This document shows, piece after piece, positions 36,846 to 45,761 of a stretch of DNA of 64,000 bases (its first letter is position 1; each line of letters starts with the position of its first letter). Source of the DNA: Calditrichota bacterium (lineage in GTDB: Bacteria > Electryoneota > AABM5-125-24 > Hatepunaeales > Hatepunaeaceae). Below the pieces are notes generated by a model, which was not told where the DNA came from, did no database searches, and worked only from the letters and a program-made list of their open reading frames with translations. The position numbers and the translations under genes are program-made. The stretch covers positions 1-64,000 of the forward strand of contig JABGPL010000008.1 in NCBI GenBank assembly GCA_018644935.1. Reading direction: 5' to 3'.

Positions 36846-37229
36846 CTATTCCTCATCGTAATAATCGTAATCACCTTCTGAAGACCCAGGAAGTTCTTCG
36901 ATTATCAATTTAATGATGCTCATGGCTTCATCAAACTCAGGTTCCAGAACATACACCTGTGAGTTTGAGCTTAAATAATTACCTCGTCCAGCTGAAGCAG
37001 CAGACCCTCTATTAGAAATTGAATACGCAGGGATGCCCTCACGCATTAACAATTCTACTGCCATATTAGCATACAGGTATTCGGGAAAGGTGTGTAACTC
37101 AATCCAATCACCATCATCGCATCCTTCCGGAATATCTAAAGGAGTGTCAGTAATCAGATCAACGCCACAATCTGAACACACGTCAAAAGTAACTGTGTAC
37201 TCAGCACTGCATTTTGGGCAAAATACCAT
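36846..37229 (-). CDS. Zinc-ribbon protein with DUF2007-like region
   Basis: MVFCPKCSAEYTVTFDVCSDCGVDL; YANMAVELLMREGIPAYSISN. Confidence 0.6.
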   Translation of the reverse strand: MVFCPKCSAEYTVTFDVCSDCGVDLITDTPLDIPEGCDDGDWIELHTFPEYLYANMAVELLMREGIPAYSISNRGSAASAGRGNYLSSNSQVYVLEPEFDEAMSIIKLIIEELPGSSEGDYDYYDEE

Positions 37230-37517: not shown

Positions 37518-38630
37518 TTGAGTTCCACTCTGAAATCAACAACTCAACATTTACTTGTTGCAGTCTATGTTTTGATCTGCCTGTTTGGTTTTGGTTGTAA
37601 TGCACCAAGAGATAGCCAGTATGATCCGGCAAGCCCTTCTTACAATGCCCCGCAAGCTCCTGATGCAATTTCAGACCTGACACTGGTCAGTTTTACAGGC
37701 CTAAATTGCCAAATTAGCTGGACAGCACCGGAAGGGGCGTTCCAATATGTTCTATACTATGGTCCAAAAGACTGGGATGGAGTAAAACTTGAAATTGCTA
37801 CCAGATATACGGGGAATCTGCCGGGTGTCAAGCCTCCCGGAGAAACACAGTCCATCTGGATTAATCAGAATTTCCCTGATACCCTCAATTGGTCTATGTA
37901 CAGCTACTCTGAGGAAGAATTACTTTCTCCCGGATCGAATGCTCTATTAATTGAAACTCCATCAGTTGATTCTCCAGCTGAAATATCCGGAACATTGAAA
38001 TCAAAACGCTACGATCGCTGGGGGATTTTGTTAGATCTAATCACTCTTGAGGTCGAAGCAGAAGTATTTGATGAGGATGGAATTGATTCCGTCTGGGTTC
38101 AATATGAATCAACCAATATTGGGCTCTTAGCATTGCAGGAAGATGGTTATCATTACTTTGCAGAGTTTCCGTCGAATGATAGTCTTCCCGGACGTAATGT
38201 CGAAGCTATTGTTGGGCATCCATTTACAATATGGTCCAGAGATGTGAGGGGAGGAGTTTCTGTATCAGAGGAATTAAAACTGATCAGAGTTCTAACTTAC
38301 TGTCCTCAAACATATGAATTGCCTGCAGATACTCTCGATGGAGATCCGACGTTTACCTGGGAGATTTATGACTCCAGGTATTCATATACATACACTATTC
38401 AGGTTATACACATCACTGACCCAGAGACCTACAATTCAAGAGTAGTCTTTGCTGATTCTCTGCTCAATATAGAGACTGTTAGTTATACAATTCATCGGGT
38501 AGGCAGCAATAATCCATTACCCGAGGATCCCAAATATTTGTTATGGTCGGTTTCTGTTGTTGATGATTTTGGCAACACAGCCCGTTCAGTGGAAGGTAAA
38601 TTTAATTTGAAGCCATATGTCGAAGAGTAA
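37518..38630 (+). CDS. Secreted lipoprotein with an FN3-like N-terminal segment
   Basis: Hydrophobic signal then LFGFGC lipobox-like; PDAISDLTLVSFTGLNCQISWTAPEGAFQYVLYYG resembles a fibronectin-III strand pattern. TTG start uncertain. Confidence 0.55.
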   Translation: MSSTLKSTTQHLLVAVYVLICLFGFGCNAPRDSQYDPASPSYNAPQAPDAISDLTLVSFTGLNCQISWTAPEGAFQYVLYYGPKDWDGVKLEIATRYTGNLPGVKPPGETQSIWINQNFPDTLNWSMYSYSEEELLSPGSNALLIETPSVDSPAEISGTLKSKRYDRWGILLDLITLEVEAEVFDEDGIDSVWVQYESTNIGLLALQEDGYHYFAEFPSNDSLPGRNVEAIVGHPFTIWSRDVRGGVSVSEELKLIRVLTYCPQTYELPADTLDGDPTFTWEIYDSRYSYTYTIQVIHITDPETYNSRVVFADSLLNIETVSYTIHRVGSNNPLPEDPKYLLWSVSVVDDFGNTARSVEGKFNLKPYVEE

Positions 38631-40095
38631 AAATTTATCCAGAGATGGATTCGAACTGATTGTAGAAGCTGCGAAAGCCCTGCTTGACGAACCGGATTTA
38701 CAGAGGTTAATACCTCGGTTGCTAGATCTTGCGTTTGAAGTGAGCGGCGTTGAAAGAGGATACATGCTCCTGCGAGATAGTGAAGGCGAACTATCACCAG
38801 TTGCGCAGCGAGGGATCGAACCCGGATCTCTGCCGGAGGGGGATCCCTCACGGGTGGTTGTTGAAACAGCTCTGCGAGAGCGTCGTCCGGTGTTATCAAC
38901 AAACGCTGCACGTGATCCAAGATTCACCGGGTCAGAATCGATTATTATTCGTGGTATTAGATCAACTTGTTGTATACCGCTCGAGACTCCCGGCAATCGA
39001 ATCGGTGCATTTTATCTCGACGCAAAAGGGACAGGTAGTTTGAACGAGGAACAACTTCCTTTACTCGAAGCGTTTGGCGCACTTGCTGCACTTTCGCTGG
39101 CCAGAGCGATGGATTTGGATTCGGCTCGACGTGCACTTGAAGCTGTAGCATCTTCAACAAGATTTCCTGACATTGTAGGTGACTCCAAAGTGATGTGCCG
39201 ATTATATGACCGAATGGACCGAATCTCTGCGGCAGATTTCCCAGTATTAATTACGGGAGCAAGCGGAACGGGGAAGGAACTAATAGCCCGAGCGTTACAC
39301 AAATCCGGTCCTCGCAGAGAACAACCATTCCGTGCAATCTTCTGTGGCAATCTAACTCCGGAACTTCTCGAGAGCGAACTGTTCGGATATAAGAAAGGAG
39401 CGTTCACCGGAGCCATTGCTGACAAACCGGGCTTACTCGATTTGGCGGAAAAAGGGACGCTTTTTCTCGATGAAATTGGAGATGTCCCCGGGCAGGTTCA
39501 GGCAAAACTGTTGCGTTTTCTCCAGGACGGTGACTACCAGCGACTTGGTGATCCCACTGAGCGTAAGGCTGATGTTAGAATACTGTCAGCTACGAATAAG
39601 AACCTGAATGATGAAATTGAAAAAGGAAGTTTCCGGGAAGACCTTTTTTACCGCTTAAATGTCTTAACCATCGAAGCTCCTCCTCTCAGAGATAGAGAAG
39701 GTGACATAGCATTGCTTTCTGCAACAATTCTCGCCAAGGTTGCAGCGCGTACAGGTCAGCCACCGCGCAGGCTTTCGCCGGCTGCCCTGAAAAGGTTAAT
39801 TGTTCATAATTGGCCGGGCAATGTGCGCGAATTAGAAAATGTACTTGCGCGAGCTGCTGTGTTGGCAATCGGAGACTCAATCGAACCAGAGGATCTTGAT
39901 CTTTTCCAAAGAGGAACAGAAGAATCCGAAGTATCTGAAGACGCGCTTGATCTGGAAAGCGTTGTTGAAGCCCACTTAAAAAGAGTGCTGAAGAAAACGC
40001 AGGGAAACCGCAGTGAAGCCGCGAGGATTCTTGGAGTCAGTAGACGCTATCTACAGAAAAACCTTGCGAAGTGGCGTGAGGAAGAAACACAGTGA
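38617..40095 (+). CDS. Sigma-54-dependent transcriptional activator (GAF - AAA+ - Fis-type HTH)
   Basis: GASGTGKELIARALH, ESELFGYKKGAFTGA, LFLDEIGDVP, NWPGNVRELENVLARA, C-terminal GNRSEAARILGVSRRYLQKNLAKW. Confidence 0.93.
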   Translation: MSKSKNLSRDGFELIVEAAKALLDEPDLQRLIPRLLDLAFEVSGVERGYMLLRDSEGELSPVAQRGIEPGSLPEGDPSRVVVETALRERRPVLSTNAARDPRFTGSESIIIRGIRSTCCIPLETPGNRIGAFYLDAKGTGSLNEEQLPLLEAFGALAALSLARAMDLDSARRALEAVASSTRFPDIVGDSKVMCRLYDRMDRISAADFPVLITGASGTGKELIARALHKSGPRREQPFRAIFCGNLTPELLESELFGYKKGAFTGAIADKPGLLDLAEKGTLFLDEIGDVPGQVQAKLLRFLQDGDYQRLGDPTERKADVRILSATNKNLNDEIEKGSFREDLFYRLNVLTIEAPPLRDREGDIALLSATILAKVAARTGQPPRRLSPAALKRLIVHNWPGNVRELENVLARAAVLAIGDSIEPEDLDLFQRGTEESEVSEDALDLESVVEAHLKRVLKKTQGNRSEAARILGVSRRYLQKNLAKWREEETQ

Positions 40096-40103
40096 GTTGA
40101 AAA

Positions 40104-40430
40104 ATGTCTGGATTATTAGATAAACTGAAAGAAGAGAGAAAATTCTCGGTTTGGAAATTGGTTAGTGTTTTTATTGTGCTGATACTTATCTCGGCCTTCT
40201 TTGGATTAAATTCCTTCTTTTCAACAGGTAATGTTGGGGGGAGTGATGATGCTTCGATATTTTTCCTCGATTCTGCAACAAAGATAATAGTGACTCTGAA
40301 TAATCAGATATACCACATACCTGGATGCTTAGAGATAGATGCTTATAAAGGTAACACTGAAAAAATCAATTATGGTAAAGCCTTAGGGAGAGGTTACATG
40401 CCTTGCCCTCTTTGTATTGGTGATGAATAA
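40104..40430 (+). CDS. Membrane-anchored HxxxC...PCxxC mini-protein 1
   Basis: N-terminal TM; TKIIVTLNNQIYHIPGCLEIDAYKGNTEKINYGKALGRGYMPCPLC. Confidence 0.7.
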   Translation: MSGLLDKLKEERKFSVWKLVSVFIVLILISAFFGLNSFFSTGNVGGSDDASIFFLDSATKIIVTLNNQIYHIPGCLEIDAYKGNTEKINYGKALGRGYMPCPLCIGDE

Positions 40431-40536
40431 AAAACTAATAAATCAGTAAAACATCGTTACTGAACAATCATATCATGTTTTTGGACAATCTTGGTTGACG
40501 TTTTCTTTTACTGAGTTTTAACAGTCGGGATGAAAA

Positions 40537-40839
40537 ATGATTAAATACTTGATTGTGGCTTCTATTGGCTTAGTGCTCATATTTCTAGCAATTTTTATGC
40601 TGAGGTCAATGGACCCCGAAAGACAAATTGAGGAAACAGATGATGAATTTGTGTCAGCAATTCAAAATCGACCATCCAATCCGGGGAGTATTGTTGAACC
40701 AGACATGGTGAAGGTGACATATGGAGACAGTCTTTATCATGATCCTTCCTGTTCTTGGATTGGAAAGAAATCAAAGAAAATGACATTAGAGAAAGCGGAG
40801 AATCTCGCATTTGAACCATGCAGTCAATGCGTGGAGTAA
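40537..40839 (+). CDS. Membrane-anchored HxxxC...PCxxC mini-protein 2
   Basis: N-terminal TM; MVKVTYGDSLYHDPSCSWIGKKSKKMTLEKAENLAFEPCSQC. Confidence 0.7.
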   Translation: MIKYLIVASIGLVLIFLAIFMLRSMDPERQIEETDDEFVSAIQNRPSNPGSIVEPDMVKVTYGDSLYHDPSCSWIGKKSKKMTLEKAENLAFEPCSQCVE

Positions 40840-40917
40840 ACATATAACTGCTTTTTTAATCGTCGGTTTTGTTGAGAGCACTTTAATCGAATTTAGGAAG
40901 GAACTTTTGAGGAATAG

Positions 40918-41271
40918 ATGTACAAAATAGGCAAAAAGCAAAGAGCAATTTCGCTGATCTCGATCCTGTTGGTGGTAACAACAGCTTTTTCAGGCTGCGA
41001 TTTTTCTGCAAAATGGGATTTAAAACGTGCTGAGAAAGCACTGAATAGTGCAGATAAGTATAAAGCCTCTTTTTGGGCTGAACGTGAGTATACAAAAGCC
41101 CAGAAAGCATTTGATGAGGCTTGCATTCTAGCCAGAGAGGGAAAGGTTAACGAGGCCAGAGATATGGCTCAGAATGCAAAGGAATGGGCGATTGAAGCGA
41201 TGGCGCTGGCACAGGCAAGAGAGGAAGAGATGGAGAAGGAACGTGATGGTCTGGGAACTTATAAAGAATAG
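40918..41271 (+). CDS. Small lipoprotein with helical C-terminus (DUF4398-like)
   Basis: Signal peptide with lipobox AFSGC; KAEKALNSADKYKASFWAEREYTKAQKAFDEA-type helical repeat. Confidence 0.6.
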   Translation: MYKIGKKQRAISLISILLVVTTAFSGCDFSAKWDLKRAEKALNSADKYKASFWAEREYTKAQKAFDEACILAREGKVNEARDMAQNAKEWAIEAMALAQAREEEMEKERDGLGTYKE

Positions 41272-41293
41272 ATAAGTTCAAAGGGGGAAAGAT

Positions 41294-41581
41294 ATCAACG
41301 AGAAAATACGCTGGGCGATCCCGATTGTACTCGGTGTGCTACTGATACTGGTGATTGTGGTTCTCAACAATTCTGCGAACCGGATGAGCCGGAGGTTTGA
41401 TTCCATTCCGGACCCAAACCTGCAAATAGCCATTACACTGGATGACAATCGGTACCATCGGTTGCTCTGTAACTGCATAATGGGTGATACATTAATCACT
41501 GAATTGCAAAACGCAAGAAACAGATATTCCGAGCCCTGTCCGGCATGCTTCCGTGAAGAAGCCGGACTCAAAAACTACTGA
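41294..41581 (+). CDS. Membrane-anchored HxxxC...PCxxC mini-protein 3 (start codon unclear)
   Basis: Frame reads INEKIRWAIPIVLGVLLILVIVVLNNSANRMSRRFDSIPDPNLQIAITLDDNRYHRLLCNCIMGDTLITELQNARNRYSEPCPAC; no ATG/GTG/TTG before the TM segment, but AAAGGGGG lies upstream of an in-frame ATC at 41294. Confidence 0.55.
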   Translation: MNEKIRWAIPIVLGVLLILVIVVLNNSANRMSRRFDSIPDPNLQIAITLDDNRYHRLLCNCIMGDTLITELQNARNRYSEPCPACFREEAGLKNY

Positions 41582-41595
41582 TCAACATTAACTTT

Positions 41596-43164
41596 ATGCC
41601 ACCAAAAAAACGAAAAATCCTGTGGGTAGATGATGAGATTGCTTTACTGAAGTCTCATATTTTGTATCTGAGTAGTCGGAATTATGAAATTGCATCCGCC
41701 ACCAACGGTCCGGATGCCCTTGAGCTTATCCAAAATCAGCAGTTCGATCTTGTATTACTTGACGAGCAAATGCCTGTAATGGAAGGACTCGAAGTACTTA
41801 AACAGATTAAGCAAATCCGGTCGGATTTGCCAGTTGTGATGGTTACGAAGGACGAAGCAGAAGAGCTTATGGATCAGGCTATAGGTTCACAAATCGATGG
41901 CTTTCTAACCAAACCGGTAAATCCCTCTCAGGTACTTTCTGTTCTAAAACGAACTCTTGACTCAAAGACAATTTCAGCCTCACAGTTTTCACAGAACTGG
42001 GCGAGGGAGTTTGCGAATCTATCTCAGATTATCGACAGCGATCTTGATGCCGATGGTTGGTTCGATTTACAATCCAAGCTATGCATCTGGGAGCAGAGAA
42101 TTGACGAGCTGGGAGACTCTGATCTTGGTGAAATGATTTATGATGCAAGGCTTGAGGCAGATCGTCATTTTGCGAAATGGATTGAAAGAGAGTATCCAGA
42201 TTGGATAAAAGCAGATTCGGATAACCGACCACCGGTATCATCAGATCTTGTTGATAAATGGTTGCTTCCTCTGTTAAAGGAGAAAAAGCCGGTTCTTTTT
42301 CTGGTTGTAGATTGTTTGCGGATGGATCAATGGATGGCAATTGAATCACTTCTGTCAGCTCAATTTAATGTGAAGAGGGATAGCTACTTTTCAATATTGC
42401 CAACAGCCACTCCCTATTCACGGAATGCTCTTTTCAGCGGTTTAATGCCTTCAGAACTCGAGAGAGTCCATCCTGATCTTTGGACTGATAACGATGAAGA
42501 TGAGGCATCCTCGAACCGCTATGAGCACCAGTTCCTGAATAATCTGCTCAAGAGACGAGCAATTGAACTGAAGCCTGAGTCAAAATATGTGAAGGTGCTT
42601 GAGGTTGAAGAGCTATCAGAATTTGAACGAAAGATCCAGGATTACGTGAACATGCCGCTGACAGCTATGGTCTACAACTTCGTTGATATATTAATCCATA
42701 CGCGGCAGAGAGTAGAAGTATTAAAGGAAATGCTGCCGGATGAATCTGCCTTCAGATCTGTAACAAAAGCCTGGTTCCAGCATTCAGCTCTTTTTAGAAT
42801 TATCCAGGCTTATCTCGAATCGGGCGGGTATGTTTTGCTTACATCGGATCATGGATCATTGCGCGGAAGACGTGGTGCAAAGGTGATCGGAGATAAACAA
42901 ACATCAACCAGCCTTCGGTATAAGCATGGCAGGAATCTTCGAACTGATCCGAAGCAGTCAATAAAAATTAAGAATCCGGAAGAATGGGGACTTCCGCGCC
43001 GTGGTGTCAATACTGAATATATTCTCGCTCGCGAGGATTATTTTTTTGTATATCCGACAAATTACCATAAGTATTTAGAAATTTATCGTAATAGTTTTCA
43101 ACACGGTGGGGTATCCCTCGATGAAATGGTTTTACCTGTAGTAACATTGAAGGGAAAAGGATAG
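41596..43164 (+). CDS. PorX-like protein: response-regulator receiver plus PglZ/alkaline-phosphatase-superfamily domain
   Basis: KILWVDDEIALLKSH...LVLLDEQMPVMEGLEVL...VTKDEAEE...TKPVNP; C-terminal FLVVDCLRMDQWMAIESLL, LTSDHGSLRG. Confidence 0.85.
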   Translation: MPPKKRKILWVDDEIALLKSHILYLSSRNYEIASATNGPDALELIQNQQFDLVLLDEQMPVMEGLEVLKQIKQIRSDLPVVMVTKDEAEELMDQAIGSQIDGFLTKPVNPSQVLSVLKRTLDSKTISASQFSQNWAREFANLSQIIDSDLDADGWFDLQSKLCIWEQRIDELGDSDLGEMIYDARLEADRHFAKWIEREYPDWIKADSDNRPPVSSDLVDKWLLPLLKEKKPVLFLVVDCLRMDQWMAIESLLSAQFNVKRDSYFSILPTATPYSRNALFSGLMPSELERVHPDLWTDNDEDEASSNRYEHQFLNNLLKRRAIELKPESKYVKVLEVEELSEFERKIQDYVNMPLTAMVYNFVDILIHTRQRVEVLKEMLPDESAFRSVTKAWFQHSALFRIIQAYLESGGYVLLTSDHGSLRGRRGAKVIGDKQTSTSLRYKHGRNLRTDPKQSIKIKNPEEWGLPRRGVNTEYILAREDYFFVYPTNYHKYLEIYRNSFQHGGVSLDEMVLPVVTLKGKG

Positions 43165-43238: not shown

Positions 43239-45761
43239 ATGAAACGCACCGTTATTATTTTTTTATTAGTTATTGCAGTAATGGTATTTGCCTTTGATGA
43301 GGCATATGCCCAGGAAGGAGGAGTGCCCGGTGTACCGCCGACATTTTTCTCGCTACCACAACATTCAGTCGCAGCAACCGATGGAGCTCTTTCAATTCTT
43401 GCCAATCCCGCTGGTTTGGGAATTTCCAATGGCAGCTCAATGACTTTTATGCTGCCCTATCAAAAGGAAGCCAAATTTGGCGATTGGGGATTTGCATCAA
43501 AGGATGATGGATTTGGCTTCAGTGCAGAGGTCTTTAATCACTCAGTCGGAGATCAAAACTATAATCAACGTCGCTACACCTGGGGACTCGGTGGTGGTGG
43601 TGATGGTTTTTACATGGGTTTTGGCTACAGTTGGACAACCGGGATTGATCGAAAGAATAACTGGGATTTCGGTGTTCTTTCACGGCCGATGCGGTGTATG
43701 TCATTTGGTGCCGTAGCTCGCGGTATCAACCAGCCTGAGATTTACGGTGAAAAATCCAACGTCGGTTACGACCTCGGTTTGGCTTTCCGTCCCTTGGCAC
43801 CATTTGGTCCGATTGGCAATAACCAAGGTGACAGATTAACAATAACTGCAGATTTTAATCTGCGTCAGTTTGATGCAACGGATACCTTTGAGGAAGAAGG
43901 CTATCTTGACGAAATGGGAATGAAGATTGGCGTTAGAGCCGAACTTCTACCAGGCGTTATTGCTCATTTAGATTACCTGCCTGAGGTTAAGGGTCATCTG
44001 GCTCGATCCGAAGAGATTCTTGCTGGTATGACATTCAGCTTTGGAAACTCAGGTGTTGGCAGCCATCACAGGAGCTCAGGCACAGGAACTGCTTATCTTG
44101 ACTTTTCTGACAGATTTGAAAAAACCATGCTCAAAAAGAAATCAGAGAAATTTGTTCAGATCAACCTGAGTGGAACAATTGTAGAGCAAAATCGGAAAGG
44201 ATTTTTCTCATCGAAACATCGAACCATTAGACACTTTAATAAACTAATGGACAGATTAACCGATGATCCGGAAGTCAAAGGTATCTATCTGAAAATGTCT
44301 GGTTTCGGTGCTGGGTGGGCAAAGATGCAGGAAATGAGGGATGCTCTTGTCAAGTTCAAGGATGCCGGCAAACAAATCGTTGTATATGCAGAATCATTTG
44401 GTAATGGCTCCTATTACCTCGCGTCAGTAGCCGATAAAATCTATCTTCCCCCGACTGGGAGCTTGAACTTAACGGGATTGGCAGCTCACATGCAATTCCT
44501 GCGTGGAACGCTTGATTGGATCGGTGTAGAACCTCAATTGGAGCACATTGGTAAATATAAGTCATACTCAGATATGATGACTCGAGACAACATGTCCGAT
44601 GCTCAGGCTGAGGCGACAAATGCTATTCTGGATGACATTTACGAAGTTTTCGTAAATGCGATTGCAGATGGCAGAGGCAAGTCTGCTGCTGATGTTCGCG
44701 GCATTTTTGATCAAGGTCCGTTTTCTGACAATGGCGCTTTAGAAGTAGGTCTTGTTGACAGTTTGGTTTATGAAGACCAGATTGAAGACCTGATTAAAGA
44801 ACTTGCCGATGGTGAACCACCCATTCAACAAGAATTTATGTACAAGATGTGGCAAGAAAAGAATACCGAATGGGATGATCACCGCAAAAAGACAATTGCT
44901 ATAATTTACGGTACGGGCGGAATCACTTCTGGAAATTCCGTCAATGGCGGACTGTTTGGCAGCGAGACAATGGGTAGTAAAACAATGTCTAAGGCGATCA
45001 AGAACGCTCGTGATAATAAGGACGTCGAGGCAATAGTATTCCGCGTTGATTCACCGGGTGGTTCAGCTCTCGCATCAGAACTCATTACACGTGAAGTCAA
45101 ACGCACCACTGAAGGTGACGACAAGAAACCGTTTATCGTTTCCATGTCCGATGTCGCTGGTTCAGGTGGTTATTATGTTGCCTGTCATGCGGATTCTATC
45201 GTTGCTATGCCCACCACCATAACGGGATCTATCGGTGTGGTTTCCGGTAAATTCAATTATGCAGAACTTCAGAAGAAAATCAAATTAAAGCATGAAACAC
45301 TGCGACGTGGTGAACATGCTGATATGTATGCCGGTTACCGTTCCTTCACAGACGAAGAATGGGATAAACTACGCGACCACATCGACCAATTCTACCAGGC
45401 ATTCATCGGTCAGGTTGCAGATGGACGCGGAATGGATACATCGGCAGTCAATGCCGTTGGTCAGGGACGGATCTGGAGTGGTAAAGCTGCTGAGAAAAAT
45501 GGTCTAATTGATAGAACAGGTGGTCTGGATCTCGCTATTGATATGGCAGCTCGAGCTGCTGGTATCAAGGACGGTGAAGAGTTTAATGTCAAAATCTACC
45601 CAAAGGGTGGACAACTCACACTGACTGCGGCTCTAGAGGGAGCTACCCGCACCTTACTGCCAGAATCTGTTATAAAGGTTGCTAAGATGTTTAGCAACGA
45701 GACACAATGGAAAGATGGTGAAGTTCTCTATGTCATGCCTTATGAAATGGACATTAAGTAA
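43239..45761 (+). CDS. SppA-like S49 peptidase with N-terminal outer-membrane-protein-like domain
   Basis: Signal peptide, ~280-aa Gly/aromatic beta-rich region, then two S49 repeats (KGIYLKMSGFGAGWAKMQEMRDAL...; VEAIVFRVDSPGGSALASELITREV, SMSDVAGSGGYYVACHADSIVAMPTTITGSIGVV). Confidence 0.85.
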   Translation: MKRTVIIFLLVIAVMVFAFDEAYAQEGGVPGVPPTFFSLPQHSVAATDGALSILANPAGLGISNGSSMTFMLPYQKEAKFGDWGFASKDDGFGFSAEVFNHSVGDQNYNQRRYTWGLGGGGDGFYMGFGYSWTTGIDRKNNWDFGVLSRPMRCMSFGAVARGINQPEIYGEKSNVGYDLGLAFRPLAPFGPIGNNQGDRLTITADFNLRQFDATDTFEEEGYLDEMGMKIGVRAELLPGVIAHLDYLPEVKGHLARSEEILAGMTFSFGNSGVGSHHRSSGTGTAYLDFSDRFEKTMLKKKSEKFVQINLSGTIVEQNRKGFFSSKHRTIRHFNKLMDRLTDDPEVKGIYLKMSGFGAGWAKMQEMRDALVKFKDAGKQIVVYAESFGNGSYYLASVADKIYLPPTGSLNLTGLAAHMQFLRGTLDWIGVEPQLEHIGKYKSYSDMMTRDNMSDAQAEATNAILDDIYEVFVNAIADGRGKSAADVRGIFDQGPFSDNGALEVGLVDSLVYEDQIEDLIKELADGEPPIQQEFMYKMWQEKNTEWDDHRKKTIAIIYGTGGITSGNSVNGGLFGSETMGSKTMSKAIKNARDNKDVEAIVFRVDSPGGSALASELITREVKRTTEGDDKKPFIVSMSDVAGSGGYYVACHADSIVAMPTTITGSIGVVSGKFNYAELQKKIKLKHETLRRGEHADMYAGYRSFTDEEWDKLRDHIDQFYQAFIGQVADGRGMDTSAVNAVGQGRIWSGKAAEKNGLIDRTGGLDLAIDMAARAAGIKDGEEFNVKIYPKGGQLTLTAALEGATRTLLPESVIKVAKMFSNETQWKDGEVLYVMPYEMDIK

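Follow-up and report, generated by a model that had tools for sequence, protein, structure and literature searches.

Tandem membrane-anchored His-Cys3 mini-proteins with a predicted Ada-type fold encoded next to porX in a lineage outside Bacteroidota

The window, the whole 64,000-nucleotide stretch of DNA analysed here, is part of C191, one of the 212 contigs of a 4.5 Mb genome, and carries three short open reading frames on the + strand just ahead of a porX gene: mini-protein 1 (40104..40430), mini-protein 2 (40537..40839) and mini-protein 3 (41294..41581). As an earlier note on this DNA had described, the three stand in tandem and share a transmembrane (TM) helix and a His-Cys module: in each, a single run of 19 residues is strongly hydrophobic (mean Kyte-Doolittle value 2.4-2.8) and the C-terminus carries a YH-x3-C...PC-x2-C module. 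In mini-protein 1 the helix spans about residues 19-37 and is followed by a linker and the His-Cys3 module, with His71, Cys75, Cys101 and Cys104 as putative ligands. A scan of the window's ORF segments of at least 60 amino acids with the strict motif [YF]H-x3-C-x(15-32)-PC-x2-C matched 3 of 352 segments, which are the three mini-proteins; composition shuffles gave an expectation of 0.0000 per window, the motif being absent from 200 of 200 shuffled sets. Mini-protein 3, the most divergent, opens at 41294-41296 with ATC, which is not a usual start codon. A purine-rich, ribosome-binding-like AAGGGGG sits just 5' of 41294 and homology begins there, whereas initiation at the nearest usual codon, a GTG at 41336, would truncate the TM helix. 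The ATC is therefore either an uncommon, non-canonical start codon or the result of a base error.

To place these genes, we compared nine genomes of the taxonomic family (the window's own, G000, and G001-G008) and 30 other genomes of the phylum, as well as a wider set of 386 genomes. The nearest relatives of the source genome, in the same family (AABM5-125-24/Electryoneota), include a record named 'Calditrichaeota bacterium AABM5.125.24', and the AABM5-125-24 lineage has been assigned to the candidate phylum Electryoneota/AABM5-125-24 (PMC10439189). With a profile built from the three mini-proteins, most genomes of the family yielded homologues; a 13-member profile found them in seven of the nine and in none of the 30 other genomes of the phylum. 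Across the 386-genome set the same 13-member profile matched in 16 outside genomes, and those matches that were inspected mostly carried a looser, secreted form of the module, for which a search of the literature available to us returned nothing useful. The three ORFs are thus members of one lineage-specific, tandemly duplicated gene family with a common TM helix and module. The His and the three Cys are invariant in the 28 aligned sequences, which comprise members and relatives, and the mini-proteins share the signature of the secreted module, YH-x3-C...(P)C-x2-C with its invariant His and three Cys, hereafter HCCC. The earlier note had singled out these four residues as invariant and had named relatives lacking them, or unrelated folds, as findings that would speak against it; neither was found.

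In the tree of the family, mini-protein 1 falls in group A with G003_a, G006_a, G008_a and the copies of G005 and G007 (support 95/95). A second group, also at 95/95, unites the B and C copies, the C clade having support of 87/98, and the inner branches are mostly poorly supported. Mini-protein 2 is a clear member of B, its module being 54-69% identical to copies in G002, G003 and G006. The array therefore looks like an old, inherited duplication rather than a recent one. In G006 a single ORF (L036, 2430-2927) fuses an A and a B module behind one TM helix.

The gene 3' of the array (41596..43164, + strand) encodes a receiver domain followed by a PglZ/alkaline-phosphatase-superfamily domain. 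It scores 660 bits against NCBIfam NF052313 (cut-off 300), matches in Pfam, aligns over its full length with known PorX structures (7pv7) and keeps the zinc motifs 'NFVD..xH' (D..H) and 'LTSDHG' (DHG) as well as the LPTAT motif. The neighbour previously described as 'PorX-like' does adjoin the mini-proteins and can be named more exactly, as a true PorX. Published work reports two zinc ions bound to PorX and its dimerisation with zinc, and proposes it as a zinc sensor of the type IX secretion system (T9SS) (PMC11320123); this reported zinc binding makes the coupling of a zinc-site family to porX suggestive. SprA (TIGR04189) is matched in all nine genomes of the family, eight of them above the cut-off, including the window's own (contig C201, 11533-17850). 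Two reviews describe T9SS as specific to Bacteroidetes, and the SprA matches in nine of nine genomes add a T9SS-bearing lineage outside Bacteroidota. Beyond porX the window encodes an 840-residue SppA-type signal peptide peptidase (43239-45761), with peptidase matches starting near residue 330; the roughly 300 residues ahead of these have no counterpart in Pfam or NCBIfam and look, by eye, like an outer-membrane beta-barrel protein. On the other side, between enolase and the porX cluster, lies a small acidic protein on the – strand (36846-37229) that starts MVFCPKCSAEYTVTFDVCSDCG and has a two-CxxC, zinc-ribbon-like N-terminus.

The mini-protein genes are tightly coupled to porX in four of the nine family genomes. 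The distance from the last mini-protein gene to porX is +14 nt in the window, +8 nt in G006, –4 nt in G008 (an ATGA overlap) and –14 nt in G003. Elsewhere, genes for a transglutaminase-like and a LeuD-like protein are the conserved neighbours: a single mini-protein gene lies 3' of the LeuD-like (Aconitase_C) gene and away from porX in G005 and G007, and the G002 copies lie 3' of LeuD about 9 kb from porX. In G001 LeuD adjoins porX and no mini-protein was found; G004 has porX and no mini-protein, which indicates that PorX does not need them. In the source genome LeuD is on a different contig from the mini-proteins and porX. An ancestral order of transglutaminase, LeuD, mini-protein(s) and porX, reduced differently in each line, is the likely origin of these arrangements. 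In the PorX tree, the branching order of the window, G004 and the G005/G007 pair at the family's base is not resolved, so independent retention cannot be counted.

Two further genes lie within or beside the array. A regulator with GAF, sigma-54 activator and Fis-type HTH domains (38617..40095, + strand; Pfam) ends 8 nt before mini-protein 1, and a lipoprotein with a lipobox and a weak DUF4398 match (40918..41271, + strand; Pfam E 0.0027, below cut-off) separates mini-proteins 2 and 3. Both had been proposed to form one module with the mini-proteins. The profile and neighbourhood comparison bears out the family and its linkage to porX in four genomes but not this wider module: the activator was not found beside mini-proteins or porX in the relatives, and the lipoprotein gave no tblastn match in their porX regions, so we regard both as local neighbours only. 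Scans for regulatory signals were at chance level for sigma-54 promoters (35 –12/–24 matches, 29.6 expected, none just upstream of mini-protein 1) and for sigma-70 promoters (18 matches, 19.7 expected). Terminator-like sites exceeded chance (16 against 7.4 expected) and are mostly inside genes, so they set no operon boundary.

A predicted fold for the module was obtained with AlphaFold, at pLDDT 91-96 with 13 relatives and 90.9 for the module alone with 28 sequences. Foldseek led from the domain model of mini-protein 2 (pLDDT 91) to Ada: its top four matches were the E. coli Ada N-domain entries 1ZGW, 1U8B, 1WPK and 1ADN (probability 0.87-0.99; for 1U8B, TMq 0.68 and 1.6 Å over 47 columns), every other match being at 0.09 or less. 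The E-values are weak (0.12-0.4) because the domain is short, about 50 residues, so the case for the fold rests on the agreement of all four Ada entries and on profiles. In hhalign the mini-proteins matched the secreted HCCC module at 98.6%, the secreted module matched Ada at 98.4%, and the mini-proteins matched Ada directly at 87.7%, the secreted set having been picked partly by the mini-protein profile and partly by the Ada profile and thus being a bridge by construction. L117, the best match to the mini-protein profile outside the family, also passes the Ada_Zn_binding cut-off (26.4 against 23 bits) and offers a sequence-level check that is independent of this bridge. PF02805 (Ada_Zn_binding) itself gave no match to the window's mini-proteins at E<=1, its best score in the source genome being 16.8 bits, under the cut-off of 23. 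A sequence search of the PDB with the mini-protein profile produced a sole, chance match to the TM segment. Taken together, the models and profiles support an Ada N-domain-type fold, the resemblance suspected in the earlier note.

The module probably faces the envelope side, as the earlier note had supposed. The HCCC relatives have a lipobox or a signal peptide, and fusions to secreted SNase nucleases account for at least seven of them; in most mini-proteins, not in all, the flank N-terminal to the helix carries slightly more positive charge than the C-terminal flank, and these differences are weak. From these signals the mini-proteins are likely to be inner-membrane proteins with the N-terminus in and the C-terminus out. 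Such a topology would leave a cytoplasmic tail of about 3-18 residues, which makes direct contact with the cytoplasmic PorX unlikely; any connection would pass by way of a T9SS protein in the membrane.

The explanation we favour, and to which we give an even chance of being correct, is that the mini-proteins are an extracytoplasmic, structural-zinc docking accessory of the PorX/T9SS envelope machinery. They would be single-pass inner-membrane proteins presenting a stand-alone Ada-type subdomain on the outer face, where a His in place of the methyl-acceptor Cys would give a predicted Zn(His)(Cys)3 site. Most likely the zinc would stabilise the 50-residue knob for docking on an envelope partner, and the accessory role would act through protein-protein contact, possibly zinc-dependent. 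We infer zinc binding, topology, docking and partner alike, and we consider an accessory role in the PorX-controlled T9SS envelope the most likely because several genomes show the coupling to porX. The mini-proteins give a testable set of candidate partners for PorX in a lineage outside Bacteroidota. This linkage could, however, also be explained by an ancestral gene order held in common, without any shared function. It is quite possible, though short of probable, that the mini-proteins are a generic envelope Ada-like module, either a small anchor built on structural zinc or a stress protein, which has no particular connection with PorX and is carried beside it by descent in an ancestral transglutaminase-LeuD-mini-porX block. 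The linkage to LeuD where porX is elsewhere (G002, G005 and G007), the adjacency of LeuD and porX in G001, where the mini-protein is missing, the scattering of the same module among unrelated genomes and the absence of HCCC mini-proteins next to porX from the phylum's other families all fit that history, but in the source genome the mini-proteins have stayed with porX while LeuD lies apart, and the overlapping reading frames of G003 and G008 are consistent with a translation coupled to that of porX.

A sensing role is harder to accommodate. The mini-proteins might serve as an envelope zinc or thiol-redox sensor, or as a zinc buffer, for PorX/T9SS, with loss of zinc or oxidation of Cys unfolding the knob and altering a membrane partner. 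The invariant His-Cys3 site is compatible with this, several copies that differ in their linkers would be suited to a graded response, and PorX is zinc-responsive (PMC11320123), but the few cytoplasmic residues offer no visible direct relay and zinc-transport genes are absent among the neighbours scanned in the window. Ada-type sites bind zinc very tightly, which suits structure over sensing. A structural Zn(His)(Cys)3 knob offers a natural interpretation, and a simpler one than the metal or stress sensing first suggested. We therefore think the sensor or buffer unlikely. More specifically, the mini-proteins could be a zinc-dependent input to PorX on the envelope side, relaying the state of zinc or thiols outside the cytoplasm to T9SS by way of a partner in the membrane; we consider this a little less likely still, and if true it would add a sensor layer not known from the T9SS of Bacteroidota. 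The fusion of at least seven relatives to SNase nucleases and the DNA binding of the Ada N-domain bring to mind a nucleic-acid-binding knob at the cell surface. We hold this to be very improbable: the module's net charge averages about +0.4 in the mini-proteins against +3.0 in the secreted modules and +6.5 in Ada, the segment that precedes the module in Ada is missing, and nucleases are absent beside the mini-proteins.

Comparison with three known systems helps to define what is distinctive here. What this lineage has in common with the PorX/PorY-T9SS signalling pathway (structures 7pv7 and 8ted) is a genuine PorX that retains its zinc motifs; TM-anchored zinc mini-proteins are not mentioned in the titles and abstracts of the papers on PorX that we retrieved. 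The secreted HCCC proteins are extracytoplasmic lipoproteins and SNase fusions that have the same YH-x3-C...PC-x2-C module; some pass PF02805 and there are weak matches to PF19746/DUF6233. They are single genes or fusions and often basic, whereas the mini-proteins occur as two or three tandem TM-anchored copies (two of them fused in G006) linked to porX or LeuD. The Ada N-domain (PF02805) has the same x-x3-C...C-x2-C spacing and the same predicted fold. Its first ligand, however, is the methyl-acceptor Cys (C38 in E. coli numbering), and all 28 aligned sequences have a His at this position, so that the four-Cys ligand set of Ada is not matched and Ada-type methyl transfer is excluded by sequence. 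The mini-proteins are membrane-anchored and have neither the methyltransferase nor the AraC part of Ada. Because the acceptor Cys, the upstream N-terminal segment and the positive charge are all missing, the module is not a domain for DNA repair, and DNA binding by it is improbable. An Ada-type zinc knob, familiar mainly from DNA repair, would appear here as a duplicated, membrane-anchored envelope domain in which the reactive Cys has given way to His.
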